Below are positions 1 through 12,505 of a stretch of 64,000 nucleotides of DNA, piece by piece (position 1 is the first letter of the stretch; each line of letters begins with the position of its first letter). The notes beneath the pieces were generated by a model. It saw nothing but the letters and a program-made list of their open reading frames with translations, had not been told where the DNA came from and made no database searches. Source of the DNA: Anatilimnocola aggregata (GTDB lineage Bacteria; Planctomycetota; Planctomycetia; Pirellulales; Pirellulaceae); NCBI RefSeq assembly GCF_007747655.1, contig NZ_CP036274.1, forward strand, positions 8,122,001-8,186,000, written 5' to 3'. A program made the translations under genes and the position numbers.

Positions 1-2
1 AC

Positions 3-554
3 TGGGCTCGCGGCAACCCCGTCGACGCCAAGTTTCCCGGCCTCAAGAACAAAACGGTAGCCGTCGTTTGTTTCGATACCAACCTGACCGGCCCCGGCAA
101 CGTGGCCGATGCTCTGGCCAAGTCGGTGGGAAGCAAGCTAGCGCTGAATGTTCCCAAGATCAAAGTTGTCGAACATCAAAAAGTCACCGATTGGATCGAC
201 GAGCAGTCCGATCACGTGGCCGACTTCAAAGATGTCGGGCGCGGAGTGAAGGCAGACATGGTCGTCGGCATCGACATGGACGACTTCCGCATTCACGACG
301 GAGCCACGCTGCTGCGCGGCAGGTCGCGAATCTCGGTCAAGGTCTACGACCTCTCCAAAGGTGGCGAAGTGGTCTACCAGACCCCCGTCGACAACGTGAC
401 CTATCCCGAAAATGGGCCCCGACCGGTTACCGACAACGAAGGAGCCTTTCGCTCCCTCTTTCTCGATATTCTGGCCAAACGCATCTCCAAGGACTTCTAT
501 CCTTACGACAAGGCAGAAGACTTCGGCCTGGATGGCCTCTACACCGGCGACTAA
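3..554 (+). CDS. Conserved hypothetical protein, C-terminal part (cut by left edge)
   Basis: The reading frame is open from the left edge of the window and ends at a TAA at 552-554, so only the last 183 residues are seen. The visible part starts with a segment rich in small residues (WARGNPVDAKFPGL) and a beta-strand-like KTVAVVCFD. It then alternates strands and helices, with a YDLSKGGEVVYQ strand near the middle. No catalytic motif is recognised. Codon use and the long open frame support a real gene. A secreted or lipid-anchored planctomycete protein is possible, but the N-terminus that would show a signal is missing. It converges on the cysteine desulfurase gene with about 50 bp between stops, so it is not part of that operon. 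Confidence 0.8.
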   Translation, partial: WARGNPVDAKFPGLKNKTVAVVCFDTNLTGPGNVADALAKSVGSKLALNVPKIKVVEHQKVTDWIDEQSDHVADFKDVGRGVKADMVVGIDMDDFRIHDGATLLRGRSRISVKVYDLSKGGEVVYQTPVDNVTYPENGPRPVTDNEGAFRSLFLDILAKRISKDFYPYDKAEDFGLDGLYTGD

Positions 555-605
555 CTTCGTCGTCGTGCCGCCTGTAGGTTACGTCGGACCCAGCGGTCGG
601 AGCGA

Positions 606-2375
606 CTACGACGGCAGCCTTTGAATGCGGCGAATCGCATCGGCCAGCCGATCAATTTCGCTGCAAGTGTTGTAAATCGAAAGTGACGGGCGAACCGTCG
701 TTTCAACCCCCATCCGCCGTAACGAAGGTTGCGAGCAGTGATGCCCGCTGCGGACTGCGATTCCCTCTTGATCGAGGTGGCGGCCGATCTCTTCTGTCCG
801 CTTGCTGGGCAATACGAACGACAGAACGCCCACTTTTTCACGGGCGGTTCCAATCAAGCGCAGGCCATTAATTCGCAGCAGTTGCTCGGTTCCGTATTCC
901 AGCAGGTGATGTTCGTAGGCTGCAATATTCGGCAGCCCGAGCCGATTCACATAGTCGAGCGCTGCCCCCAGGCCGACCGCATCGGCAATGTTGGGCGTGC
1001 CCGCTTCGAACTTGGCTGGCGCCTCGCTATACGACGTCTCTTCAAACGTCACGTTGCGAATCATATTGCCGCCACCTTGCCACGGCGGCACAAAATCGTG
1101 CAATTCTTCCTTGATGTAGACCGCCCCGATGCCGGTCGGGCCAAAAATCTTGTGCCCCGAGAAGACAAAAAAGTCAGCTCCCAGTTCCTGCACGTTCACG
1201 GGAATGTGAGCGACCGACTGCGCGCCGTCGATCAGCACGCGAGCGCCGTACCGTTTGGCAATCTGCGTCATCTCATGCACGGGAAGAATCGTCCCCAAAC
1301 TGTTCGAGGCCTGCGTCAGCCCGACGATCTTCGTCCGTGGCCCGAGAATCTTTTGATACTCCTCCATCATGATTTCGCCCCGGTCGTTGACCGGAATCAC
1401 GCGGATGTGAGCACCCTTTTCTTTGGCCACCATTTGCCAGGGAACGATGTTGGCGTGATGCTCGAGATTCGACAGCACGATCTCGTCGCCGGGCTGTAAA
1501 AACTTAGCGCCGTAGGTCTTGGCGATGAGATTAATGCCTTCCGTCGTACCGCGGACGAAGACAATCTCTTTCACGCTCGACGCGCCGATGAAGGCCTGCA
1601 CTTTTTGCCGAGCCGACTCATACGCATCCGTCGCGCGGGCTGCGAGGGTGTGGGCGGCACGGTGAATGTTCGAGTTATCGTTCTCGTAGAAGTGGCTGAT
1701 CGCATCGATCACGCTTTGCGGCTTTTGTGTCGTTGCCGCGTTATCGAGCCAGGCGAGTGGCTTGCCATGCACGCGCTGCCGCAGGATCGGAAAATCGCCG
1801 CGCACGGCGTTCACGTCCATCGGCCGCGAGCCCTGTGCGGAGTACTGCTTATTCAGTGCTTGCCGCTCGCGCAGTTCGACTGCGGTCGCCCCCAGGCCGT
1901 TGTTTCGTCCCGGAAAATGCGAAGCGCGAATCGACTGCACAAACGCACTCAAGCCCCCCGATGTTCCTTGCGCGCCGGGTACTTCGGCCGCACTGCCGTG
2001 CGCGGGGAATGCAGGCGCATGGATGAACGTCGGTGTCCCGCCGAACGAAGGCACGCCGCCGAAACCCGGTGGCGAGAACGGCACACCGGGGAAGGAAGGA
2101 CTGGTGGGCAAGTTCCCCATGCCAGGATTGGGGGGAACTGCCGGCGGCGAACCGACTGGCAGCGCGCTCGGGCCAGGCATTCCGCCCGAGTGTACGGGAA
2201 AGGAATTGTGCGGCACCGAGACGGGAGGTGAAGGCATACCGGTCGGAGCAACCGACGAAGGTTCTGGCAGAGGAGTTTCGGCAGCAGGGAGCGCCTTGGC
2301 ATTCGGCGGCTCGTTATAAAGTCGCGAAGCGATCCGTGAAATCATGTCAGGGGTAATCTCGTCCACAGCAGTCAC
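606..2375 (-). CDS. Cysteine desulfurase (SufS-like) with disordered encapsulin-cargo N-terminus
   Basis: 589 residues. The C-terminal ~400 residues (from about 187) form a group II cysteine desulfurase that takes sulfur from L-cysteine as an enzyme persulfide, releasing alanine. The PLP lysine is seen in SGHKIFGP (K409) and the persulfide cysteine in RSGHHCSQP (C547). The first ~185 residues are unlike housekeeping SufS. A short amphipathic helix (residues 6-22, ITPDMISRIASRLY) is followed by over 100 residues dominated by Pro, Gly and Ser, then a second ordered stretch (about 141-180). Long disordered tags of this type are known to load cysteine desulfurases into family 2 encapsulins. The gene sits 45 bp downstream of two shell genes on the same strand, so it is very probably their cargo, made from the same transcript. 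The stored product would be elemental or persulfide sulfur; that is inferred from the family. Confidence 0.95.
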   Translation of the reverse strand: MTAVDEITPDMISRIASRLYNEPPNAKALPAAETPLPEPSSVAPTGMPSPPVSVPHNSFPVHSGGMPGPSALPVGSPPAVPPNPGMGNLPTSPSFPGVPFSPPGFGGVPSFGGTPTFIHAPAFPAHGSAAEVPGAQGTSGGLSAFVQSIRASHFPGRNNGLGATAVELRERQALNKQYSAQGSRPMDVNAVRGDFPILRQRVHGKPLAWLDNAATTQKPQSVIDAISHFYENDNSNIHRAAHTLAARATDAYESARQKVQAFIGASSVKEIVFVRGTTEGINLIAKTYGAKFLQPGDEIVLSNLEHHANIVPWQMVAKEKGAHIRVIPVNDRGEIMMEEYQKILGPRTKIVGLTQASNSLGTILPVHEMTQIAKRYGARVLIDGAQSVAHIPVNVQELGADFFVFSGHKIFGPTGIGAVYIKEELHDFVPPWQGGGNMIRNVTFEETSYSEAPAKFEAGTPNIADAVGLGAALDYVNRLGLPNIAAYEHHLLEYGTEQLLRINGLRLIGTAREKVGVLSFVLPSKRTEEIGRHLDQEGIAVRSGHHCSQPSLRRMGVETTVRPSLSIYNTCSEIDRLADAIRRIQRLPS

Positions 2376-2420
2376 TCCAGCAACCTAATGAATCTGCGCG
2401 AATTCAACGTCAGCGAACGA

Positions 2421-3860
2421 TTACTTCACCTTGTTCGGACGATGATCGTAGTCGTGGTAGTAACCGACTTCGACGTTCTCCAGCACGCCCAACGCATCGT
2501 CAGTCAACACCGCGCACGACGAATAAAGCGTGAGGAGGTAGGAAGCTACGCCCAGGCTATCGAGCCCCATCAAGCGGGCCGACAAGCTGGGGCTCACTTC
2601 GCCAGGGATCCCAGCCTGGTGCAGGCCGACGACACCCTGATCCTTTTCGCCAATCCGCAGCAGCAAGATGCTGGTCGTGCCATACCACTGGTTCGATTGA
2701 TAGCGGCTCTTCATTTCCAACTTGTCACAAGGGACGAGCGGGATGCCGCGCCACATGATGACCGGCGTACCGAACATGTTCATCGTCACGGGTGGCACAC
2801 CGCGCCACGTGCATTCGCGCTCAAAGGCCGCAATCGCCTTGGGATGAGCCAGAAAGAACGCAGGTTTCTTCCAAACGAGTGCCAGCAGTTCATCCAGATC
2901 GTCGGGAGTAGGAGCGCCGTAACGCGTGCTGATGCGCATGGCCGGATCGACTGAGTGAATAAGCCCGAACTTCTTGTTGTTGATCAGTTCCCACTCTTGC
3001 CGCTCTTTGATCCCTTCGATCGTCAAGCGCATCTGCTCTTCGAGTTGATCGTAGGGCCCGTTGTACAGGTCAGAGACGCGCGTGTGAACGCGGACGACAG
3101 TTTGAATCGCCGACAGCGAATACTCGCGCGGATGGGCCGAGTAGTCGACGAATGTCTCGGGGATCTCAACGTTCTCCGCAAAGCCCGAAACGAGGTCGAT
3201 GTTTCGCTCGCCGTAGCGATTCACGGTCGATTGCAATTCGACATGCTCGTTAATCGCGCGCTTGAAGTCATCGGTCTGATTCGGCGTTTCGCTTAGCATC
3301 GAATCGAGATCCTTGCGCGACAACGTCAGCAGCACGCACGGTGTTATCGTCCGCACCGTTACATCCGAAGGCTTGTCGCTGACCAGGTCAGACTCGCCGA
3401 AGAATTCACCTTCGGTCAGCAGGGCGATGCGCAAATCGCTGCCGTGGACACCCTTGCTCAGGACTTCGACCTGACCCTGAGCGATGATGAAGAACTTGCT
3501 GAGATCCTCCCCTTCGACAATCAGCTTGTTGCCGAGCGAGACCTCTTCGGTCTTAAAGCGATTGGCCATCCGGCCGAGGATCGTATCCGAAAGTTTTGAA
3601 AAGTGAGGTACGCTCCGGAGCGCTTCGAACGGGAACGTAATCGCGCCGTCGTTGACGTCGACTTCGATCCGTTCCGCCTTCGTCAGTTCGACCTTGGTCC
3701 GATTGACGCGGTACGTGCCACCATCGACTTGCACCCACGGCAGCAAGCTGAGGAGCCAGCGCGGGGTGATCGACATCATCTTGGGTGATGTCTTGGTGGT
3801 GTTCGCCAGATTGCGGGCGACCGACGTCGTCACGCTACGTTGCAGGAGGTTGTCGGACAT
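2421..3860 (-). CDS. Family 2B encapsulin shell protein 1 (with cNMP-binding-like domain)
   Basis: 479 residues. HK97-fold shell protein of the SrpI-like encapsulin family, expected to self-assemble into an icosahedral cytoplasmic compartment. Residues 1-60 (MSDNLLQRSV, the WLLSLLPW helix, GGTYRVNRTK) look like the N-terminal arm and E-loop region. Residues ~85-205 are an inserted cyclic-nucleotide-binding-like domain with the GEFFGESDLV cassette, which defines subfamily 2B. Residues ~225-479 are the P- and A-domain core (YSAHPREYSL, YNGPYDQLEEQMRL, RYGAPTPDDLDELL, LMGLDSLGVASYLLTLY). It lies between its paralogue (133 bp upstream) and the desulfurase cargo gene (45 bp downstream). The phosphate-binding cassette has S-D where cNMP binders have R-A, so nucleotide binding is doubtful. 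The start ATG is shared by alignment with the paralogue. Confidence 0.95.
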   Translation of the reverse strand: MSDNLLQRSVTTSVARNLANTTKTSPKMMSITPRWLLSLLPWVQVDGGTYRVNRTKVELTKAERIEVDVNDGAITFPFEALRSVPHFSKLSDTILGRMANRFKTEEVSLGNKLIVEGEDLSKFFIIAQGQVEVLSKGVHGSDLRIALLTEGEFFGESDLVSDKPSDVTVRTITPCVLLTLSRKDLDSMLSETPNQTDDFKRAINEHVELQSTVNRYGERNIDLVSGFAENVEIPETFVDYSAHPREYSLSAIQTVVRVHTRVSDLYNGPYDQLEEQMRLTIEGIKERQEWELINNKKFGLIHSVDPAMRISTRYGAPTPDDLDELLALVWKKPAFFLAHPKAIAAFERECTWRGVPPVTMNMFGTPVIMWRGIPLVPCDKLEMKSRYQSNQWYGTTSILLLRIGEKDQGVVGLHQAGIPGEVSPSLSARLMGLDSLGVASYLLTLYSSCAVLTDDALGVLENVEVGYYHDYDHRPNKVK

Positions 3861-3913
3861 TTCGGTTCTCGATAAATGGGATTTCAGATTCGTTCTGGAA
3901 TTGTGCTTACTTA

Positions 3914-3985
3914 GCCCGACGCGTCAGCGAGGGGGAAGTGCTGGTCATCGTCGATTGGCAATTCACCCTCGCTGACGCGTCGGGC
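3914..3985. repeat. Perfect 20-bp inverted repeat between the two shell genes
   Basis: Arms 3914-3933 and 3966-3985 are perfect reverse complements (core CCGACGCGTCAGCGAGGG) with a 32-base loop. Parts of the same sequence recur upstream of fabI (26728-26750) and as fragments at about 14529 and 17320, so it belongs to a dispersed palindromic repeat family. As RNA it would form a long hairpin between shell gene 2 and shell gene 1. There is no T-tract on either side, so it is more likely an mRNA-stability or attenuation element than a simple terminator. Confidence 0.8.
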
Positions 3986-3993
3986 AAAACGGA

Positions 3994-5451
3994 CTAAATA
4001 CCGGACCCATACTCAAAGCCGCGATTTTCGCGCATCGTGTAGTCGTGGTAGTAACCGACTTCGACGTTTTCTAGTACTCCCAGCGCATCGTCGGTCAGTA
4101 CCGCCGCGGAGAAGTAGAGTGTGAGGAGATACGAAGCCACACCTAAGCTATCGAGCCCCATTAAGCGGGCCGACAAACTGGGGCCAATCGCACCGGGAAT
4201 CGCTGCCTGGTGCAAACCAACGACCCCTTGATCGGCCTCACCGGTTCGCATGAGCAGGATGCTCGTTGTGCCGTACCATTGATTCGACAGATAGCGGCTC
4301 TTCATTTCCAACTTGTCGCAGGGGACGAGCGGAATGCCACGCCAAGTGATGACGGGCGTCCCAAAAAGATTCATCGTCACGGGTGGGACGCCGCGCCACG
4401 TGCATTCGCGTTCGAAAGCGGCGATCGCCTTGGGATGAGCGAGGAAGAACGCTGGCTTCTTCCAAACCAGCGCGAGGAGTTCGTCCAGATCGTCGGGCGT
4501 TGGTGCGCCGTAGCGAGTGCTGATGCGCATCGCGGGATCGACCGAGTGAATCAGCCCGAACTTCTTGTTATTGATGATCTCCCACTCCTGCCGCTCTTTG
4601 ATTCCTTCGATCGTCAGCCGCATTTGCTCTTCGAGCTGATCGTAGGGGCCGTTGTAAAGATCGGAGACGCGTGTGTGGACGCGAACAACGGTTTGAACCG
4701 AAGAGAGCGAATACTCGCGGGGATGAGCTGAGTAATCGACAAAGGTCTCCGGAATTTCAACGTTCTCGGCAAAACCCGAGACGAGATCGATATTGCGCTC
4801 GCCGTAGCGATTGACGGTCGATTGCAGGGCAAGATGCTCGTCGATCGCGCGCTGAAAATCCTCGCCCCACTGCGGGAACTCGCTCAGGACCGAATCGAGA
4901 TCCTTGCGCGAAAGGGTCAGGAGAACGCACGGAGTGATCGTGCGGACGGTGATGTCCGAGGGCTTGCCGCTGACAAGATCGGTCTCGCCGAAGAATTCGC
5001 CTTCAGTCAACAGCGCGATTCGCAGGTCGCTGCCATGCACCCCCTTGCTCAGCACTTCGACCTGGCCCTGGGCGATGATGAAGAACTTGCTGCGGTCTTC
5101 ACCTTCGACGACTAATTCATTTCCCAGTGAGACTGCTTCACTCTTGAAGTGCTGGGCCATCTGCGCGAGCAATGAATCGGGCACGCGCGAGAGGAGCGGC
5201 ACGCTGCGGAGCGTTTCGGGCGGAATGCTGATGGCATCGCCACTCAGATCGATCTCGATCCGCTCGGCCTTGCTCAGTTCCACCTTCGTGCGGTTCACGC
5301 GGTAGGTGCCCCCTTCCACGTTCACCCACGGCAGCATGCTCAGCAGCCAGCGCGGGGTGATCGACATCATCTTGGGTGATGTCTTGGTGGTATGAGCCAG
5401 GTTGCGCGCGACCGAGGTCGTTACGCTGCGTTGCAAGAGGCTGTCAGACAT
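3994..5451 (-). CDS. Family 2B encapsulin shell protein 2 (paralogue of shell 1)
   Basis: 485 residues from the ATG at 5451; the frame stays open further upstream, but only this start aligns with the shell 1 N-terminus (MSDSLLQRSV). The layout matches shell 1: N-arm, inserted cNMP-binding-like domain at about 85-205 with GEFFGETDLV, then the HK97 core. The core is almost identical to shell 1. Differences cluster at residues ~68-115 (entry into the inserted domain), ~190-210, around 430-440, and in the C-terminal tail, which is longer here and ends FEYGSGI. It is the first gene of the minus-strand operon and diverges from the ArsR gene. Two shell subunits suggest a mixed or two-component shell. 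Cytoplasmic. Confidence 0.95.
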   Translation of the reverse strand: MSDSLLQRSVTTSVARNLAHTTKTSPKMMSITPRWLLSMLPWVNVEGGTYRVNRTKVELSKAERIEIDLSGDAISIPPETLRSVPLLSRVPDSLLAQMAQHFKSEAVSLGNELVVEGEDRSKFFIIAQGQVEVLSKGVHGSDLRIALLTEGEFFGETDLVSGKPSDITVRTITPCVLLTLSRKDLDSVLSEFPQWGEDFQRAIDEHLALQSTVNRYGERNIDLVSGFAENVEIPETFVDYSAHPREYSLSSVQTVVRVHTRVSDLYNGPYDQLEEQMRLTIEGIKERQEWEIINNKKFGLIHSVDPAMRISTRYGAPTPDDLDELLALVWKKPAFFLAHPKAIAAFERECTWRGVPPVTMNLFGTPVITWRGIPLVPCDKLEMKSRYLSNQWYGTTSILLMRTGEADQGVVGLHQAAIPGAIGPSLSARLMGLDSLGVASYLLTLYFSAAVLTDDALGVLENVEVGYYHDYTMRENRGFEYGSGI

Positions 5452-5597
5452 AGAGAGTTCCACCCCACGATCAGGAAGGGCATTGGAACCTCCGGTATGT
5501 CCGGTCGGCATGAATTGGATTGCTAGTTTATCGGCCCGCAAACCTTCACCAGATTAGCTGTTTCCCCAAGCGTCGACCAGTAGTGCAGGATTCCTGA

Positions 5598-5625
5598 TTG
5601 ACATGTCGACACATTCCGATATAAT
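5598..5625 (+). promoter_or_regulatory. Consensus sigma-70 promoter of the arsR-rhodanese operon with palindromic operator-like sequence
   Basis: TTGACA (5598-5603) and TATAAT (5620-5625) with a 16-bp spacer, both perfect consensus hexamers. The palindrome TGTCGACA lies in the spacer and AATCGATT (5623-5630) overlaps the -10. These are well placed for an ArsR-family dimer to block RNA polymerase. The ATG of the repressor gene is at 5645, giving a very short leader with GAGG as ribosome-binding site. The same 193-bp gap contains the start of the divergent shell operon, so the repressor could control both directions. Confidence 0.7.
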
Positions 5626-5644
5626 CGATTAACGAGGCACAGCA

Positions 5645-5956
5645 ATGGCAACCAAACCAAAAAACAGCTCGCTGACTCCACTTCCCGCCCTCGAGCAGGC
5701 AGCAGAGTGCTTGAAAGCGCTGGCTCATCCACACCGATTGCGGATCCTGCAAATGCTGCTGCGGGGTGAGTATGCCGTCGGCGAACTAGCAGAAGCCTGC
5801 GAGATTCCCAGTCACATGGCCTCGGAGCATTTGCGACTAATGCAACGGTGCGGCTTTCTCAAGGCAACCAAAGAGGGTCGCTTTGTGTATTACAGCGTGG
5901 CTGAACCACACCTGGCCAGCATCATGGCTTGTATCGAAGCTCGCTTCGGGAGTTGA
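5645..5956 (+). CDS. ArsR/SmtB-family winged-helix repressor
   Basis: 103 residues. Shows the ArsR core: ALAHPHRLRILQMLL (helix region), YAVGELAEACEIPSHMASEHLRLM as helix-turn-helix (about 43-66), then the wing GFLKATKEGRFVYYSV. Cysteines are at 22, 52, 69 and 96. Relatives of the SqrR/BigR type sense persulfides through two cysteines, and all the neighbours handle sulfur, so a sulfane-sulfur sensor is likely. No classical metal-binding motif (such as ELCVCDL) is visible. It is first in a plus-strand run of five genes and is preceded by a near-perfect promoter with internal palindromes. The DNA-binding family is certain; the inducer is inference. Confidence 0.92.
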   Translation: MATKPKNSSLTPLPALEQAAECLKALAHPHRLRILQMLLRGEYAVGELAEACEIPSHMASEHLRLMQRCGFLKATKEGRFVYYSVAEPHLASIMACIEARFGS

Positions 5957-6033
5957 TTCTCGTTTTTTGTCATACATATCGTAATCTCGCGACACGTCCA
6001 TTTTATTGATCGGTCGATTACAGGAGCTTCGTC

Positions 6034-6591
6034 ATGACCCAGACCATCACGCCACAGGACTTTCAGCGCCTTTGCCAAAGCGGACAGGACGTCGAACTCA
6101 TCGATGTTCGCACGCCGGTGGAGTTCCAGGAAATGCACGTCGAGATCGCTAAAAATGTGCCGCTCGATCGCCTCGACCCGCAGCGCCTGCAACAAGAGCG
6201 AACAACCGGCGAAGCGCCGCTGTACGTGATTTGCCGATCAGGCGGTCGCGGCAAACAAGCCTGTGAGAAGTTCCAGGCCGCTGGAGTGACGAACGTCATC
6301 AACGTCGAAGGAGGAACCATGGCCTGCGCTGCCGCCGGGATGTCGATGGTTCGCGGCAAGAAGGCGGTCTCGCTCGAACGCCAAGTACGAATCGCCGCTG
6401 GTTCGCTCGTCTTCGTCGGTTCAGCGCTGGGTTACTTCGTACATCCTTATTTCATTGGACTCCCCGCCTTCGTCGGCGCGGGACTCGTTTTCGCCGGTGT
6501 CACCGATACCTGTGGCATGGGCATGATGCTTGCGCGCATGCCGTGGAATCAGGTTGCCTCTCCAGGCGGAAGCTGTGCGCTGCCCAAGTGA
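6034..6591 (+). CDS. Rhodanese-DUF2892 membrane sulfurtransferase (YgaP-like)
   Basis: 185 residues. Residues 1-105 are a rhodanese domain with the LIDVRTPVEF entry motif and catalytic cysteine C67 in the VICRSGGRG loop, which carries a persulfide during sulfur transfer. Residues ~110-175 are a DUF2892 domain with two predicted transmembrane helices (AAGSLVFVGSALGYFV and FIGLPAFVGAGLVFAGV) ending in DTCGMGMMLARMPWN. The arrangement is that of E. coli YgaP, an inner-membrane rhodanese. Likely role: accepting sulfane sulfur at the cytoplasmic face of the membrane. Second gene behind the ArsR repressor, 77 bp after it. Confidence 0.93.
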   Translation: MTQTITPQDFQRLCQSGQDVELIDVRTPVEFQEMHVEIAKNVPLDRLDPQRLQQERTTGEAPLYVICRSGGRGKQACEKFQAAGVTNVINVEGGTMACAAAGMSMVRGKKAVSLERQVRIAAGSLVFVGSALGYFVHPYFIGLPAFVGAGLVFAGVTDTCGMGMMLARMPWNQVASPGGSCALPK

Positions 6592-6668
6592 CGTCGACGG
6601 TGCGCGTTGCCGTGTATTCCATGTGGGTTGAGAATCTCTGATCGGTACGAACAGAAGGAGCATTCCCA

Positions 6669-7211
6669 ATGCGGTTTTTTTCTGGCCTGCTAGTTGTCGC
6701 AGTTTCAGCTTGTGGATTCGCGGCCTGTGCCGAACCTCCCAGCTTTCAGTTTCCTGCTGTGGTGGACTACGGCGGCGTTGCGCCCTTGCCCGATGCCGCC
6801 GAACAGCCACGCGCGGGCGTAAAGGTCGTGTTCGACATCACACCCGAAGCAAAGCCGGAGGACGTCAACAAGGGGCTCGAAACAGTAGCTCGCTATTTGA
6901 ATCTCAATGCTCAGGCCGGCCACAAGACGAGCGATGTTCGCATCGCCTTAGTCTTGCACGGCGGCGCTACCAAGGTGGCTTTGAGTGATGCAGCCTATGC
7001 GCAGCATACAGGCGCGAAACACAACCCTAACTCCAAGCTGCTTCGAGAACTAAAGAAGTGCGGGGTCGAAGTCTTTGTTTGTGGGCAGTCACTCGCCCGG
7101 AACAAGTTCGCTGCCAGCGAGGTCAATCCCGACGTGACCATTGCTGTTTCCGCGATGACAGTGAACATCAACAAGCAGCTGGACGGTTATGCCTATCTTG
7201 CCATTCACTAA
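6669..7211 (+). CDS. Secreted DsrE-like protein
   Basis: 180 residues. An N-terminal signal sequence (FFSGLLVVAVSACGFAACA) ends in small residues, so the protein is probably exported. The rest has a DsrE/DsrF-like alpha/beta fold: GVKVVFDITPEAKPEDVNKGL, RIALVLHGGATKVAL, then LLRELKKCGVEVFVCGQSL with two cysteines, the second in the usual DsrE position. DsrE proteins carry sulfur as persulfide, and exported members also occur without known function. RBS AGAAGGAG lies just before the ATG. It sits between two rhodanese genes in the sulfur run, so a role in extracytoplasmic sulfane-sulfur handling is inferred. Confidence 0.85.
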   Translation: MRFFSGLLVVAVSACGFAACAEPPSFQFPAVVDYGGVAPLPDAAEQPRAGVKVVFDITPEAKPEDVNKGLETVARYLNLNAQAGHKTSDVRIALVLHGGATKVALSDAAYAQHTGAKHNPNSKLLRELKKCGVEVFVCGQSLARNKFAASEVNPDVTIAVSAMTVNINKQLDGYAYLAIH

Positions 7212-7265
7212 GCTCAGGTCCACGAATCCCACTCCGCACGCTCCTCTTCTGACGGGAACTCGGCC

Positions 7266-8684
7266 ATGCAACTCAAACAATACTATCTCGCCTGTCTCTC
7301 CCAGGCTTCTTACCTGATCTTGGATGAGAAAACAAAGACCGCAGCGGTAGTCGATCCGCAACGAGACATCGACCAATACACTCGCGATGCGGCAGATGCA
7401 GGTTGCCAGATCAAGCATGTATTCCTCACGCACTTTCATGCCGACTTTCTGGCCGGACACATCGAACTGCGCGACAAAGTGGGAGCCACCATTCATCTCG
7501 GTCGGCGCGCGGACGCTGAGTTTGCCGTGAACAAAGTGAAGGATGGAGATCGGATCGAATTCGGTGATGTGCGATTGCAGATCCTCGAAACGCCTGGACA
7601 CACTCCTGAAGGGATTTCGATTCTCGTTTTCGATCTCGCCAAGTCGACAAGCGAACCTTTCGCGGTCCTCACTGGCGATACCCTGTTTATTGGCGATGTC
7701 GGTCGGCCCGATCTACTCGCGTCGATCGGCGTGACTGCGGACGAATTAGCCGACATGCTGTACGACTCGCTGACGAACAAGCTCGTCACTTTGCCGGATG
7801 CCACGCTGGTTTATCCAGCGCATGGTGCCGGGTCGATGTGCGGCAAGAGCTTGAGCAAGGAAACGGTTTCGACGATTGGCGAGCAGAAGAAATTCAACTA
7901 CGCACTGCAACCAATGAGCCGCGCGGAGTTCAAGCAACTGGTTACTGCCGAGCAACCCGAAGCGCCAAGCTATTTTGTTCACGACGCGATGCTCAATCGC
8001 CAAGAGCGGCCGAATCTCGAAGGGACTCTCACCAAGTCGTTGAAATCGATGTCGCTGAACGAAGTCATCAGCCAGCGAGATCAAGGCGCGCAATTATTGG
8101 ATGTCCGCAGCGCGCTTGATTTTGCCGGAGCGCATTTGGCTGGCTCGCTTAACATCGATCTGCAGGGAAAATATGCTACCTGGTGCGGCACCATGCTCGA
8201 ACACGAGCGGCCGATTGTCGTGATCGCCGAATCGGGCAACGAGCCAGAGGCTGTGATGCGGCTCGGCCGAATTGGGTTCGATAATGTCGTCGGTTTCTTG
8301 CAAGATGGCATGAGTGCGTTGCGCGAACATCAGGAGTTCATTCGCCAGATCGATCGCATCACAGCCGTCGCGCTCAGCGAACAGCGCGCAGCAGATTTGC
8401 CGCCACAGATTGTTGATGTACGCTCCGAAAAGGAGTGGAACAGCGGACATATTGCCGGCAGCGTGAACATTCCACTCAATCACCTGCGAGAACGCGCCAC
8501 CGAGCTTGCTCCCGACCGACCCATAGTCGTGCATTGCGAAGGTGGATATCGTTCGGCCATTGCGGCCAGCCTGCTGGCTCAACTGGGGCATTCCCAGGTG
8601 CAAGATCTCGCTGGTGGCTTCAAAGCCTGGAGTGCATCCCAGCTGCCGACAGAAACGAATGCAATGGCAGCCAGCACTTCGTAG
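7266..8684 (+). CDS. Persulfide dioxygenase-rhodanese fusion (CstB-like)
   Basis: 472 residues. Residues 1-~245 are a metallo-beta-lactamase fold with the iron ligands of persulfide dioxygenases (THFHAD with H56/H58, GHT with H112, GDT with D138, AHG with H186). Residues ~262-360 are a rhodanese-like domain whose active-site loop reads AESGNE and has no cysteine. Residues ~370-472 are a second rhodanese with C424 in VHCEGGYRS. This order (dioxygenase, dead rhodanese, live rhodanese) is that of staphylococcal CstB, which converts low-molecular-weight persulfides to thiosulfate and sulfite. Cytoplasmic. It follows the DsrE gene by 54 bp and precedes the CoA-persulfide reductase, as in cst-type operons. 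No sulfide:quinone oxidoreductase is seen nearby. Confidence 0.94.
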   Translation: MQLKQYYLACLSQASYLILDEKTKTAAVVDPQRDIDQYTRDAADAGCQIKHVFLTHFHADFLAGHIELRDKVGATIHLGRRADAEFAVNKVKDGDRIEFGDVRLQILETPGHTPEGISILVFDLAKSTSEPFAVLTGDTLFIGDVGRPDLLASIGVTADELADMLYDSLTNKLVTLPDATLVYPAHGAGSMCGKSLSKETVSTIGEQKKFNYALQPMSRAEFKQLVTAEQPEAPSYFVHDAMLNRQERPNLEGTLTKSLKSMSLNEVISQRDQGAQLLDVRSALDFAGAHLAGSLNIDLQGKYATWCGTMLEHERPIVVIAESGNEPEAVMRLGRIGFDNVVGFLQDGMSALREHQEFIRQIDRITAVALSEQRAADLPPQIVDVRSEKEWNSGHIAGSVNIPLNHLRERATELAPDRPIVVHCEGGYRSAIAASLLAQLGHSQVQDLAGGFKAWSASQLPTETNAMAASTS

Positions 8685-8721
8685 CCTCGCGCTACAAATA
8701 CTATCACTAAGGACATGATCA

Positions 8722-10383
8722 ATGAAACTGCTGATCATTGGCGGCGTGGCCGGAGGTGCCTCGGCAGCGACGCGCGCTCGGCGTCTTTCTGAAACCGCCG
8801 AGATCGTGATGTTCGAGCGCGGGCCTGATGTCTCGTTCGCGAATTGCGGGCTTCCCTACCACATTGGCGGCGAGATCAAGGACCGCAACAAGCTGCTGGT
8901 CACCACTCCTGCCAAACTGCACGAACGATTCAACCTTGATGTGCGAGTCCGCTCGTCGGTCTTGGCCATCGATCGCACGCAGAAGACCGTACATGTGCGC
9001 GAGCTGAATACCGGCCGCGAATACGACGAGTCGTACGACAAACTGATCCTCGCCCCCGGTGCTGCACCTCTTCGTCCGTCACTACCGGGCATCGATTTGC
9101 CTGGTATTCATACGCTGCGCAATCTGCCCGACATGGACCGGATCAAGGCGATTGTCGATGCCGGCGCGAAGAGTGCCATCGTTATTGGCGCGGGCTTTAT
9201 CGGCCTGGAAATGGTCGAAAACCTCATTCATCGCGGCGTGCAAACCACCGTTGTCGAGTTGCAAGACCAAGTCCTGCCACCACTCGATAGGGAAATGACT
9301 ACTCCGCTCGCCGAAGTTTTGGCCGCCAAGGCCAAGGGAGTCACTCTTTTGCTCAGCGAATCGGCCGAAGGTTTTGAAAGTGCCGATGAAGAGATTGTCG
9401 TGCAGCTCAAGTCTGGCAAGCGGCTGCAAGCTCCGCTGGTGATCTTGGGCATTGGTGTGAAGCCCGAAAATCAACTCGCGATTGCGGCTGGACTGGAAGT
9501 TGGCCCTCGTGGCGGCATTCGCGTGAACGAACAGCTGCAAACAAGCGATCCCGACATCTACGCCGTGGGTGATGCCATTGAAGTGCGTGACGTGATTTCC
9601 GACAGCCCGACGCAAGTTCCCCTCGCCGGACCGGCGAATCGTCAGGGGCGACTTGCGGCCGATCACATCTTCGGCAAGCAGGTTCGCTATCGCGGCACGC
9701 AAGGGACGGCGATCGTTGGCCTGTTCGGCAAGACAGCAGCCCTGACCGGTGCCTCCGAGAAGTCGCTCCAGCGGAGCGGCATCCCTTACCGTATGGTTTA
9801 CATTCATCCCGCCCATCACGCCGGCTATTATCCCGGCGCACAAGCCATGGCGCTCAAGCTCCTCTTCACGCCCGATGACGGCCGCATTCTCGGCGCCCAA
9901 GCTGTCGGCGGTGAAGGAGTCGACAAGCGGATCGATGTGATCGCGGTGGCCATTCAGGCGAAGATGACTGTCTTCGATCTGGAAGAAGTCGAACTCGCTT
10001 ACTCACCGCAATTTGGTTCGGCGAAGGATCCGGTGAACATGGCAGGCTTTGTCGCTGCAAATCTCCTGAGGGGAGATCATCCGCAGATCGACGTCGCCGC
10101 TTACGAGAAGCTGGCGGGCGACGATCAGCCTTTCTTGCTCGACGTGCGCACCGCCGATGAGTTCAACGCCGGGCACATTCCCGGTGCGACGAACATTTCC
10201 ATCGATGTGCTGCGTGCCCACCTGGACGAATTGCCACGCGGGCGAGACATCGTGGCCTATTGTCAGGTCGGCCAGCGTGGCTATCTGGCCACTCGCATTC
10301 TGCTGCAAGCGGGCTTTCGGGTGCGCAACCTCAGCGGTGGTTACAAGACCTACCTGCTGTGGCACCCGGCAGAGGCGAAATGA
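8722..10383 (+). CDS. CoA-disulfide/CoA-persulfide reductase with C-terminal rhodanese
   Basis: 553 residues. An N-terminal FAD-binding Rossmann motif (IIGGVAGGASAA) is followed by the redox cysteine C42 in SFANCGLPYHIGG, a second NAD(P) motif (VIGAGFIGLEM) at ~155-165, and the FAD motif IYAVGDAIEV. After a dimerisation domain, residues ~460-553 form a rhodanese with C514 in AYCQVGQRG. This architecture is that of CoADR-RHD enzymes that reduce CoA persulfide or polysulfide with NAD(P)H. It starts 37 bp after the dioxygenase gene and closes the sulfur operon. The next gene is on the opposite strand. Confidence 0.94.
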   Translation: MKLLIIGGVAGGASAATRARRLSETAEIVMFERGPDVSFANCGLPYHIGGEIKDRNKLLVTTPAKLHERFNLDVRVRSSVLAIDRTQKTVHVRELNTGREYDESYDKLILAPGAAPLRPSLPGIDLPGIHTLRNLPDMDRIKAIVDAGAKSAIVIGAGFIGLEMVENLIHRGVQTTVVELQDQVLPPLDREMTTPLAEVLAAKAKGVTLLLSESAEGFESADEEIVVQLKSGKRLQAPLVILGIGVKPENQLAIAAGLEVGPRGGIRVNEQLQTSDPDIYAVGDAIEVRDVISDSPTQVPLAGPANRQGRLAADHIFGKQVRYRGTQGTAIVGLFGKTAALTGASEKSLQRSGIPYRMVYIHPAHHAGYYPGAQAMALKLLFTPDDGRILGAQAVGGEGVDKRIDVIAVAIQAKMTVFDLEEVELAYSPQFGSAKDPVNMAGFVAANLLRGDHPQIDVAAYEKLAGDDQPFLLDVRTADEFNAGHIPGATNISIDVLRAHLDELPRGRDIVAYCQVGQRGYLATRILLQAGFRVRNLSGGYKTYLLWHPAEAK

Positions 10384-10390
10384 GCGAGCA

Positions 10391-10645
10391 CTAACCGCCG
10401 GGACGATTGAGCGTCAGGGAGTAGAGGATCACAACAGCCCCGGTCGACAGCAGGCTCCAAGGAGCCCACTCGGCCGGTCTCCAGTCGCGACTGGCAGCCA
10501 TGGGTGTGCTGCTTTGAAACATCGACTGCTGCCCAGTCGGGCTTGGGCTGTTGTCACCCGCGAAGACATACGATTCGACGACCAGGCATTCTGCCCCGAA
10601 GATGCAGGCATAAATGCCAAGGGCTAAAAAGAAGGCGCGCCACAT
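10391..10645 (-). CDS. Small two-helix membrane protein of unknown function
   Basis: 84 residues from the ATG at 10645, chosen over the ATG at 10651 because GGAAAG lies about 8 bases upstream. The sequence starts with a hydrophobic helix (MWRAFFLALGIYACIFGAECLV), continues with a polar Ser/Pro/Gln-rich loop, and ends with a second hydrophobic stretch (SLLSTGAVVILYSLTL). No family motif is recognised. It resembles short membrane proteins scattered through planctomycete genomes; that comparison is from memory and was not searched. It converges with the CoA-persulfide reductase gene, 7 bp apart. Confidence 0.65.
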   Translation of the reverse strand: MWRAFFLALGIYACIFGAECLVVESYVFAGDNSPSPTGQQSMFQSSTPMAASRDWRPAEWAPWSLLSTGAVVILYSLTLNRPGG

Positions 10646-10810
10646 GAGCATGACTTTCCAAGGGGGCTGAGCGGGGCCATCCTGGCAAACTCTCGTGCTC
10701 CGTCCGTACTTGGCTTGTATCGACGCGATCAGCAGTTGAATTCCACAATTCAAGCTGCTGCCGCACGATCGTCAGAAGCGCTCTGTCTTCACTTCATCAA
10801 TCCGTCGCGA

Positions 10811-12505
10811 CTACTGTCTGGCTCCGCCATTCACGGCTGCAGAAATTTGCCGGATTTGCCGCCCCTGCAGATCGATCTCGACAATCTGTTCGGCAGTGGT
10901 GATGAGCGTGCGCCCGCCGGGCAAGCGGAAGGCATCGCTGGGGCGGGCAATTTTGTATTCCCACGTGACGCGACTTTCATCGTCCAATTCCACGACGCGC
11001 CCCTGGCCATAGTTGGCCGTCAGCAGGCGCCCCGAAGGGAGCACTTGCAAACTATTGATGCGTCCCTCAATCGTCCACTGCCGCACGCTGCTGCCGTCGG
11101 GTGCCACTTCGCGAACCAGGTTGGGGCAGGCGAAAATGGTGTTGCCGTTGTGCAGCCGCTCGGCATCGAAGCACTGATCGGGCGTGCCATGTTCCCACAC
11201 CAGGTTGCCGCCTGAATCGGCTTCGACGACGCGGTTCCCGCCGAAATCGGCAATCAGCACGCGCCCCCCCGGCAGCGGCTTGGCTCGAATGGCATTCACG
11301 CCGCTGAGTTGCCAAACCACTTGGCCGCGATTGTCGAATTCACAGACTCGGTTCTCCCAATGAGAGGCGACCAGCACGTTGCCGCCAGGCAACTTTTCCG
11401 CGCTCCAGGCTTGCATGTTCAACTGCCAGGTGATGTTGCCATCGGTGTCCAACTCGCAAACTTTCCCCATCCCGCCGGTGGCAATCAGCGTGTGGCCATT
11501 CAAGCTGCCGCGGGCGTGAACCGCCAATCGCTGCGGCGGTTGCAACACAACCTGGGTGCCCGGACCAGCCAGCCACTCGCGCCAGCGCGCCATCGTTGCT
11601 TGCCGTTCGGCCGCCGCTGCATAGGGCGAATAGTCGAACTCCTGCCCAGTCAGCCCGCATAGCCATAGGGCAGCTTCACGGCGGACATCGACCTGGGGCG
11701 AATCGAGCAGGCGAATGAACGCAGACAGTGCGGCAATCTCGCCCCGCTGGGCGACACCTTGTGCGGTCAGCAGCGACACCTGGTCGTCGCGATCGGCCAG
11801 CAGTTGAGCGATCAGCGGACGGTCGACGACTTCAGTACTGCGGCTAATGACAATCGCCGCGGCCAGGCGCGACGACAAGCGTTCGGCAGTCGCTGCCGCC
11901 CGAAACTCCGGCAAGAGCGACGCCCGCATGTGGCGCTGCAAGAGAAACGAAAACTCGTCGCGCAAATCGGCGCGCTCCATCACAATCGCCACCACCAGCC
12001 AATCGTCGTCGCTCAAAGCCGCGGGCTCGCGGGCGATGAGCTGCAACGCAGCTCGATAGACTTGCGTCGATTCCGAATCATGCCGATCAAGGACGTGCCG
12101 CAAGCGCCAGCGCCCTTCCGGCAACTCGGTTGCCAATCGTTTGAGCCATTCTTCCCGCGGAATCGCCGGCAGCTGAATCAGCTGCTGCATGGCCGACTCG
12201 CGCAAGTGATACTCTTCCGCATCGAGATCCTTCAACCAGCGATCTCGATCGGCCGGCGTATGCTGCGAGAAGCGCTGCAGCAGTTCAACCGCGCCCGCTG
12301 CAGTCCCCGGCACCTTGCGGGCAATGAGCACCTCAGCCGGATCCCAGGTCTGCTGCTTGGGCGCATTGGGCTCGGTGATGACACCCGCCGGATCGCCACC
12401 ACCCACACGAATGCGCAGCTGAGCGTGCAGCAGCTGTTGGCCGAAGAGTACGAACGCGAGCGCAGCAATCATCCGTTGGACAAACGAGCGGGCAGGCAGG
12501 CTCAT
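10811..12505 (-). CDS. Secreted HEAT-repeat plus beta-propeller protein
   Basis: 564 residues. A signal peptide (MIAALAFVLFGQQLLHA) is followed by about 270 residues of helical, HEAT-like repeats (HLRESAMQQLIQLP, QVDVRREAALWLCGL). The C-terminal ~240 residues contain repeated four-strand blades with G-G-x-V-L-I/V-A and N-R-V-x-E-x-D signatures (LPGGRVLIADFGGNRVVEAD and similar), typical of NHL/PQQ-like propellers. Probably a periplasmic or extracellular scaffold; no enzyme motif seen. Its ATG overlaps the stop of the upstream EF-hand gene by four bases (ATGA), so the two are translationally coupled and probably work together. Confidence 0.85.
   Translation of the reverse strand: MSLPARSFVQRMIAALAFVLFGQQLLHAQLRIRVGGGDPAGVITEPNAPKQQTWDPAEVLIARKVPGTAAGAVELLQRFSQHTPADRDRWLKDLDAEEYHLRESAMQQLIQLPAIPREEWLKRLATELPEGRWRLRHVLDRHDSESTQVYRAALQLIAREPAALSDDDWLVVAIVMERADLRDEFSFLLQRHMRASLLPEFRAAATAERLSSRLAAAIVISRSTEVVDRPLIAQLLADRDDQVSLLTAQGVAQRGEIAALSAFIRLLDSPQVDVRREAALWLCGLTGQEFDYSPYAAAAERQATMARWREWLAGPGTQVVLQPPQRLAVHARGSLNGHTLIATGGMGKVCELDTDGNITWQLNMQAWSAEKLPGGNVLVASHWENRVCEFDNRGQVVWQLSGVNAIRAKPLPGGRVLIADFGGNRVVEADSGGNLVWEHGTPDQCFDAERLHNGNTIFACPNLVREVAPDGSSVRQWTIEGRINSLQVLPSGRLLTANYGQGRVVELDDESRVTWEYKIARPSDAFRLPGGRTLITTAEQIVEIDLQGRQIRQISAAVNGGARQ

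Follow-up and report, generated by a model that had tools for sequence, protein, structure and literature searches.

Family 2B encapsulin operons that carry a cysteine desulfurase are known: the available text of PMC8346489 lists 199 of them, describes operons with two shell genes, and names rhodanese and serine acetyltransferase as enriched accessories. According to the available sections of PMC12407261, two 2B shells co-assemble, desulfurase is among five types of two-component operon, and sulfur storage by such shells is cited. Excerpts of PMC8049743 report that the Family 2A SrpI/CyD system of Synechococcus elongatus has the targeting motif LARLANEFFS and rises on sulfur starvation, and excerpts of PMC9774250 describe E. 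coli ygaVP, with YgaV cysteines 31 and 98 as the sensing residues. Here we analyse a stretch of 64,000 nt from the planctomycete Anatilimnocola aggregata (NZ_CP036274.1, positions 8,122,001 to 8,186,000; hereafter the window, to which plain coordinates refer), in which a predicted two-component Family 2B encapsulin operon with its desulfurase faces a divergent run of persulfide-handling genes. Each arm is preceded by a conserved element of its own, and different signals seem to control the two arms. The first-pass annotation of this DNA took the shell-desulfurase link as known, and it is indeed published, as are two shells and an added rhodanese (PMC8346489, PMC12407261, in the parts available). 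It also supposed that the whole combination had not been described: the window differs from the published 2B systems by its divergent ArsR/YgaP/DsrE/CstB-like/CoADR run and by a conserved hairpin in the leader of the shell operon. Neither is mentioned in the available parts of these two papers, and searches of the accessible literature on encapsulins with rhodanese, persulfide or ArsR brought up no description of the combination.

Gene content of the encapsulin and persulfide arms

All eight genes of the first-pass inventory lie where it placed them and have the domains it assigned. Reading away from the divergent gap, the minus strand encodes the upstream shell Enc1 (3994..5451), the downstream shell Enc2 (2421..3860) and the desulfurase (606..2375, GTG start). 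The plus strand encodes an ArsR-family regulator (5645..5956), a YgaP-like membrane rhodanese (6034..6591), a DsrE-family protein (6669..7211), a CstB-like protein (7266..8684) and a coenzyme A-disulfide/persulfide-reductase-like protein fused to rhodanese (CoADR-rhodanese, 8722..10383).

Both shells have the HK97-type SrpI-like domain with an inserted cNMP-binding domain (CBD) that defines Family 2B (PF19307 and PF00027), and both score well over the NCBIfam family 2B cut-off of 400 (NF041163: 607.7 bits for Enc1, 592.7 for Enc2). They are distinct genes of one cluster, as in two-component 2B systems, with 87% identity overall, 93% in the HK97 part and 81% in the CBD part. Enc1, whose start is most likely the ATG at 5451 rather than the TTG at 5541 of the open reading frame list, matches 9bje, 9bix and 9bhu best in the PDB, over its full length including the CBD. 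A whole-genome search (9.0 Mb, single contig) gave no further match to PF19307. The motif PR(A/T)A is a hallmark of cAMP-binding cassettes; both shells have KPSD at this position, and canonical cAMP binding by either therefore looks unlikely. The two predicted shells probably form a mixed nanocage that holds the desulfurase. Between the shell genes lies an inverted pair (3914-3933 and 3966-3985) of a REP-like unit, CCCTCGCTGACGCGTCGGGC, of which the genome contains 152 copies at up to 2 mismatches, against none in the reversed control.

The desulfurase combines a SufS-type catalytic domain, above the TIGR01979 cut-off, with an N-terminal extension of ~185 residues that bears the tag-like motif MISRIASRLYNE, the composition expected of an encapsulin desulfurase cargo. 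On the cargo model NF041166, which is named for family 2A, it reaches 788.8 bits against a cut-off of 800, and this in its C-terminal part only. Of the 47 full-length desulfurase homologues, 44 have a LARLANEFFS-like motif within their N-terminal 80 residues, against 0.09% of shuffled N-termini, with a pattern that was loosened after inspection of the sequences. The first-pass reading of a cargo-type desulfurase that belongs to a two-component 2B shell is supported. The host genome has 11 desulfurase matches, this protein included, and the runner-up is a separate SufS-like gene (47% identical), which makes the putative cargo look dedicated to the shell. The locus resembles the two-component 2B systems in its two CBD-bearing shells and its SufS-type desulfurase with a long N-terminus (PMC8346489, PMC12407261, available parts). 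Its motif MISRIASRLYN resembles that of the S. elongatus 2A cargo (compared with LARLANEFFS only, as given in the available text of PMC8049743), whose shell, unlike those of the window, has no CBD. In metagenome-assembled genomes named Geobacterales/Desulfuromonadales (L052, L054, L055, L059; L numbers denote loci, G numbers genomes), the desulfurases form a group (support 100/99) nested among planctomycete ones, which suggests transfer or mis-binning; all four also contain matches to the leader hairpin described below.

The persulfide arm opens as E. coli ygaVP does (PMC9774250, excerpts), with an ArsR-family gene followed by a YgaP-type membrane rhodanese and with a regulator site at the promoter; unlike ygaVP, it has an ArsR that lacks the YgaV cysteines and has four others, and it continues with DsrE, CstB-like and CoADR genes. 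The rhodanese, with a YgaP-like transmembrane domain, shares 37% identity with E. coli YgaP across 178 aligned positions, and the DsrE protein (PF02635) begins with a signal-like segment, as judged by eye. The CstB-like protein consists of a metallo-beta-lactamase fold and two rhodaneses, the second of which alone has the cysteine, in CEGGYRS. This is the architecture expected of CstB, the cysteine in GxGSxCGKS included, and the protein aligns nearly end to end with 3tp9 and, over residues 3-453, with 3r2u, which we take to be the CstB structure. In Staphylococcus aureus, a CstB-type protein of this kind belongs to the cst operon for sulfane-sulfur detoxification, which has the CsoR-type regulator CstR. 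The plus arm here has an ArsR in place of CstR and lacks SQR and TauE genes. The CoADR-rhodanese matches 3nta (E 2.4e-178) and 8a56, 'Coenzyme A-persulfide reductase' (E 2.8e-152) and, in the alignment with 3nta, retains the SFANCGLPY cysteine and the rhodanese motif CQVGxRG expected of the family; on NCBIfam TIGR03385 it scores 487.6, below the cut-off of 578.8. The set of persulfide enzymes originally proposed is upheld in that these proteins keep the architecture of their families.

Two conserved elements in the divergent gap

The first-pass annotation had both arms share one 193-bp control region. The gap does measure 193 bp (with Enc1 starting at 5451), and the notion of a single region is overstated, as it contains two distinct conserved elements. 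The one before ArsR (5598..5625, plus strand) is an imperfect palindrome within a sigma-70-like promoter, TTGACA-16-TATAAT, that has 12 of 12 consensus bases. An operator resembling TTGACAT(A/G)TCGGnAnnTTCCGATATATT is found 5' of 24 of the 27 non-duplicate ArsR genes (up to 6 mismatches to the seed), and a matrix made from 21 stand-alone sites gives 34.8 bits in the window, 32.5 at L108 and 38.2 at L081, where the best score in 640 kb of shuffled window is 10.8. Scanning the host genome returned 14 sites at up to 3 mismatches (3 in the control). The window operator is the only one without a mismatch, followed by a site in the second persulfide cluster of this genome (L218; 1 mismatch), and the sites with 2 mismatches are one in the ArsR/rhodanese intergenic region (5973..6000, minus strand, 25.1 bits) and one unrelated. 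Control of encapsulin shells in general by ArsR was considered and rejected, as the strong sites lie at ArsR, rhodanese or reductase modules; this rejection does not extend to the window.

Cysteines 22, 52, 69 and 96 of the window ArsR are conserved in 27 of 27 homologues, itself included. The column of YgaV Cys31, in contrast, holds Gln in all 27, none of the 13 homologues aligned with YgaV has a cysteine at the position of its Cys98, and the window protein reaches only 48.6 bits on the NCBIfam BigR model (cut-off 155). The ArsR-rhodanese pair is thus YgaVP by gene order, but by its cysteines the regulator is not a sensor of the YgaV/SqrR/BigR type.

The second element, a candidate cis-regulatory leader hairpin (5485..5510, minus strand; ~33 nt from the Enc1 start), was exposed by comparing the regions upstream of shells, including that of another genome of the same genus (G053). 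Its consensus among relatives is GCYGA-CYRG-N4/5-CYRG-AGGC, and in 1.65 Mb of loci a pairing-aware pattern finds 35 copies, 5 of which are duplicates, where shuffled sequence yields 1.7 on average. Judged by label or position, 11 of the 35 stand before a cysteine synthase and 15 before a shell gene, 26 in all. In most of the cysteine-synthase-type copies that were printed, the start of an intrinsic terminator falls within the element. As the pattern requires pairing, a paired fraction near 100% is built into this set. In 19 copies taken from outside shell leaders, both partners change in 3 of 7 pairs, and the covariation score is 0.268, against 0.195 in shuffles, none of 500 of which scored as high. 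On one of five measures, the count of further pair types, the copies did not outdo the shuffles, of which 320 in 500 scored as high. Shuffling does not remove the relatedness of these sequences.

Three covariance models were used, of which R1 and R2 were trained with the window shell copy included and R3 on the 19 other copies only, although R3 depends in part on shell leaders, in which the hairpin was first noticed. The window hairpin scores 28.3 bits with R1, which contains it, and with R3 it is the best match in the whole window (rank 1, 22.2 bits, E 0.003). Outside its training set R3 gives 32 matches of at least 17.4 bits in 93 sources, and 16 of them, several being near-copies, lie within 400 nt 5' of a first shell gene, where 0.3 are expected. 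The three best R1/R2 matches in the host genome lie ahead of the shell, a cysteine synthase and a porin-like gene (by eye); the shell copy was in the training sets of both models, the other two in that of R2 only. Two weaker matches (21.1 and 20.5 bits) have no recognised sulfur gene alongside. Of the six matches in G053 the five strongest were examined: one is upstream of the shell, and the others precede genes for a cysteine synthase, for a hexapeptide transferase interpreted as a serine acetyltransferase (cysE-like) and for a cysteine-dioxygenase fusion (PF05995), and a DUF1559-like gene (by eye).

Wider searches with the models, at E 0.1 in the family and at E 0.001 in the phylum, gave mostly weak matches, in 81 of 149 and 27 of 294 genomes, respectively. 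A simple pattern re-found 46 of the 58 hairpin loci returned, and 8 of the 46 have a gene of our query list downstream (5 cysteine synthases, 1 member of lipoprotein family f10 and 2 porin-like genes at 24% identity), in a test that is incomplete, having missed the host porin-like gene and the DUF1559-like gene of G053. The remaining matches are treated as chance or unassigned. A looser leader pattern, ACCGG N2-5 CCGGAGGC, matched at about control level across 20 genomes and was replaced by the covariance model. Rfam gave no match at gathering score in window positions 1-12000, and five short permissive scans were empty or far below that score; searches of the accessible literature brought up no such leader. 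The compact leader-RNA candidates are the window copy and those at L032 (5320-5344), L313 (236-260), L319 and L320, all without an Rfam match and with a terminator in the cysteine-synthase type.

Outside the window's family the leader is not purely sulfur-linked, judging by neighbouring genes read by eye. In the Geobacterales assemblies, hairpin-terminators (L054 15343, L055 7120 and 14922, L059 13817) are followed by outer-membrane-like, DUF2325-like, O-acetylhomoserine-sulfhydrylase-like and NifB-like genes, and in other genomes of the planctomycete phylum (L333, L334) the hairpin precedes genes without a clear role. Just 5' of porin-like genes it occurs in several genomes, the host among them (L314, L323, L338 and L348).

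Recurrence of the neighbourhood and origin of the persulfide genes

The family sample has shells in 12 of its 149 genomes, the phylum sample in 19 of 392. The window was compared with 76 other encapsulin loci (70 from a contig scan, L108-L112 and L220), many of them on short contigs; 32 have 3 kb or more on each side. Enc1-Enc2-desulfurase is the usual core of the mapped loci. A YgaP-like rhodanese lies within 5 kb in 14 of the 76, accompanied by ArsR in five (L038, L039, L067, L081, L108). By rough arithmetic, from ~120 full rhodanese rows in roughly 1 Gb and 812 kb of flank examined, ~0.1 linked rhodaneses would be expected by chance. L035/L037 and L038/L039 are near-copies, and at L081 the distance is 4.5 kb with unrelated genes between. 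In four of the 12 shell-bearing family genomes (G000, G053, G098, G145), the rhodanese lies no more than 2 kb from a shell domain; 108 of the 149 family genomes have at least one YgaP-like rhodanese. The linked gene may be divergent, downstream co-directional or downstream convergent. Linkage changes 11 times on the desulfurase tree (at least 7 changes forced by starred branches) and 7 times on the rhodanese tree, which contains the window gene twice (at least 2 forced); truncated contigs were scored as not linked, which inflates both counts. The association of the rhodanese, sometimes with ArsR, with encapsulin loci is thus real and recurrent. At L067 (1211-4587), desulfurase, ArsR, YgaP-like rhodanese and an Rrf2 regulator are consecutive on one strand, with 20 bp between the first two.

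The other persulfide genes are not conserved in this way. No DsrE or CstB-like gene was found in the 76 other loci, and a CoADR occurs in one (L033), in the divergent layout CoADR-rhodanese | Enc-Enc-desulfurase seen in the window. From these counts L023 was dropped as a short partial match; labels for the CstB-like family (PDORHD) at L121, L122, L123 and L127 were not counted, being short rhodanese matches (28-35%, one fifth of the length), and L117, with a partial CoADR match 6 kb away, is outside the 76. Shell-free relatives of the set are common. The host genome has a second cluster, L218 (C1:4664000-4683900), with ArsR, rhodanese, CstB-like, TauE, DsrE, SQR-like, methyltransferase, CoADR and second TauE genes and no shell, whose products are 80% (ArsR), 65% (rhodanese), 75% (CstB-like), 62% (DsrE) and 70% (CoADR) identical to those of the window; its SQR-like protein scores 245 bits on NF049943, below the cut-off of 525. 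Shell-free ArsR-rhodanese-CstB-like or ArsR-rhodanese-CoADR runs recur in relatives (L221-L236), CstB-like matches at 1e-30 are found in 91 of 149 family genomes (mostly 33-42% identity), and the CoADR of G053, 80% identical to that of the window, stands away from the shell. The window set is a trimmed paralogue of a module present in many shell-free relatives. As it has neither the SQR-like nor the TauE genes of L218, the desulfurase would be the one enzyme of the locus recognised as producing sulfane sulfur.

A proposed cysteine-sulfur buffer and the alternatives

We give even chances to the locus as a whole acting as a buffer of cysteine sulfur, loaded by the shell arm under control of cysteine and unloaded by the plus arm under control of persulfide. 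A mixed two-component Family 2B encapsulin would take up the desulfurase through its N-terminal tag, and the encapsulated enzyme would convert cysteine to alanine and sulfane sulfur. The plus arm would work as a persulfide operon of YgaVP/Cst type: the membrane rhodanese could hand on sulfane sulfur with DsrE as a carrier, the CstB-like protein could oxidise low-molecular-weight persulfide and the CoADR-like enzyme could reduce persulfide to sulfide. Since the hairpin leader is common to cysteine synthase, we infer that the shell arm follows cysteine or sulfur status, and since the four-cysteine ArsR would act as a repressor at an operator inside the promoter, the plus arm would open as persulfide or sulfide builds up. 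Separate and unrelated regulation had been named as an outcome that would count against a common system; the elements do look separate, yet both appear to point to sulfur, so that this objection holds by half. That the arms adjoin in one genome is no proof of cooperation, and their functional coupling, with sulfur loaded, stored and mobilised around the shell, is plausible; the recurrent link makes the participation of the rhodanese likely. Filling and emptying, each with its own control element, could be studied separately, and the leader offers a concrete handle on the signal that switches on a desulfurase encapsulin and may be a new cysteine-linked regulatory RNA. Tentatively, and at less than even probability, we extend this to an undescribed compact leader RNA, a two-helix hairpin of 22 nt, that would govern a cysteine regulon including the shell operon, with an ArsR that would represent a new, four-cysteine type of sensor in control of the divergent unloading arm, to give a sulfur store with two inputs and separately gated filling and emptying. 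The proposed targets are cysteine synthase, the cysE-like gene, the cysteine-dioxygenase fusion and encapsulins in Planctomycetes, and cysteine synthase and the O-acetylhomoserine-sulfhydrylase-like gene (by eye) in Geobacterales, the cysteine-synthase-type copies running straight into the terminator.

Several observations weigh against the buffer. The first-pass annotation proposed conservation of the whole cluster across planctomycetes as a test, and this fails, as the full set stands beside a shell in the host genome alone, among contigs of which many are short. The shell operon of G053, in the same genus, faces a divergent ArsR-rhodanese pair only, and that genome has no CstB-like (PDO-type) match at 1e-30; 62 of the 76 loci have no linked rhodanese, and only 5 of the 32 with 3 kb or more on each side have one. 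The ArsR operator is absent from the encapsulin-linked ArsR genes at L038, L039 and L067, being present in only 2 of the 5 others (L108, L081), and shell loci without ArsR have no operator site above 16.3 bits. No promoter was found for the shell, and the window leader alone folds no better than shuffles (z -1.27), with a predicted minimum-energy fold other than the consensus hairpin; each of the four terminator-type leaders tested exceeds its shuffles in stability (z -3.4 to -5.3).

An alternative is that the persulfide arm duplicates a stand-alone module for sulfide detoxification and lies beside the encapsulin operon by chance, the arms not cooperating. The shell-free paralogous cluster with SQR-like and TauE genes, the far wider spread of CstB-like genes than of shells in the family sample and the confinement of the full set to one genome agree with this explanation, whereas the rhodanese-shell link, in several lineages and geometries and far above its chance expectation, and the reappearance of the same layout with CoADR at L033 do not, and we regard it as unlikely, if not strongly so. 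A distinctly lower probability goes to a role in sulfur starvation like that of SrpI, in which the desulfurase would free cysteine sulfur for biosynthesis, the rhodanese distribute it and the oxidising and reducing enzymes clean up. The S. elongatus response cited above (PMC8049743, excerpts) fits this role, as do the neighbours of 90 shell loci (L018-L087, L108-L127), which by names assigned by eye include the cysteine synthase family near 39 (one member verified as PALP), an ABC ATPase read as sulfate uptake near 19 and serine-acetyltransferase-like genes near 14. Against it, the cysteine-consuming dioxygenase fusion of G053 has the same leader, and a sulfur-burning CstB-like dioxygenase would be an odd partner in starvation. 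We likewise find it rather improbable that the hairpin is the DNA operator of a cysteine regulator and not an RNA element. It is near-palindromic, lies a few tens of bases from the start, is at ~22 nt very small for a leader RNA and in the window copy does not fold well alone, and one locus, L067, has an Rrf2 regulator; on the other hand, the variable loop (4 or 5), the G-U pairs, the pairs changed on both sides and the terminator that starts within most printed cysteine-synthase-type copies, and would compete with the outer helix, speak against an operator.

More distant shells of the planctomycete phylum (L121, L123, L125 and L127) adjoin ThiF/MoeB-like, JAB-like and cysteine synthase family genes (names by eye), a neighbourhood that resembles sulfur-carrier cysteine synthesis.

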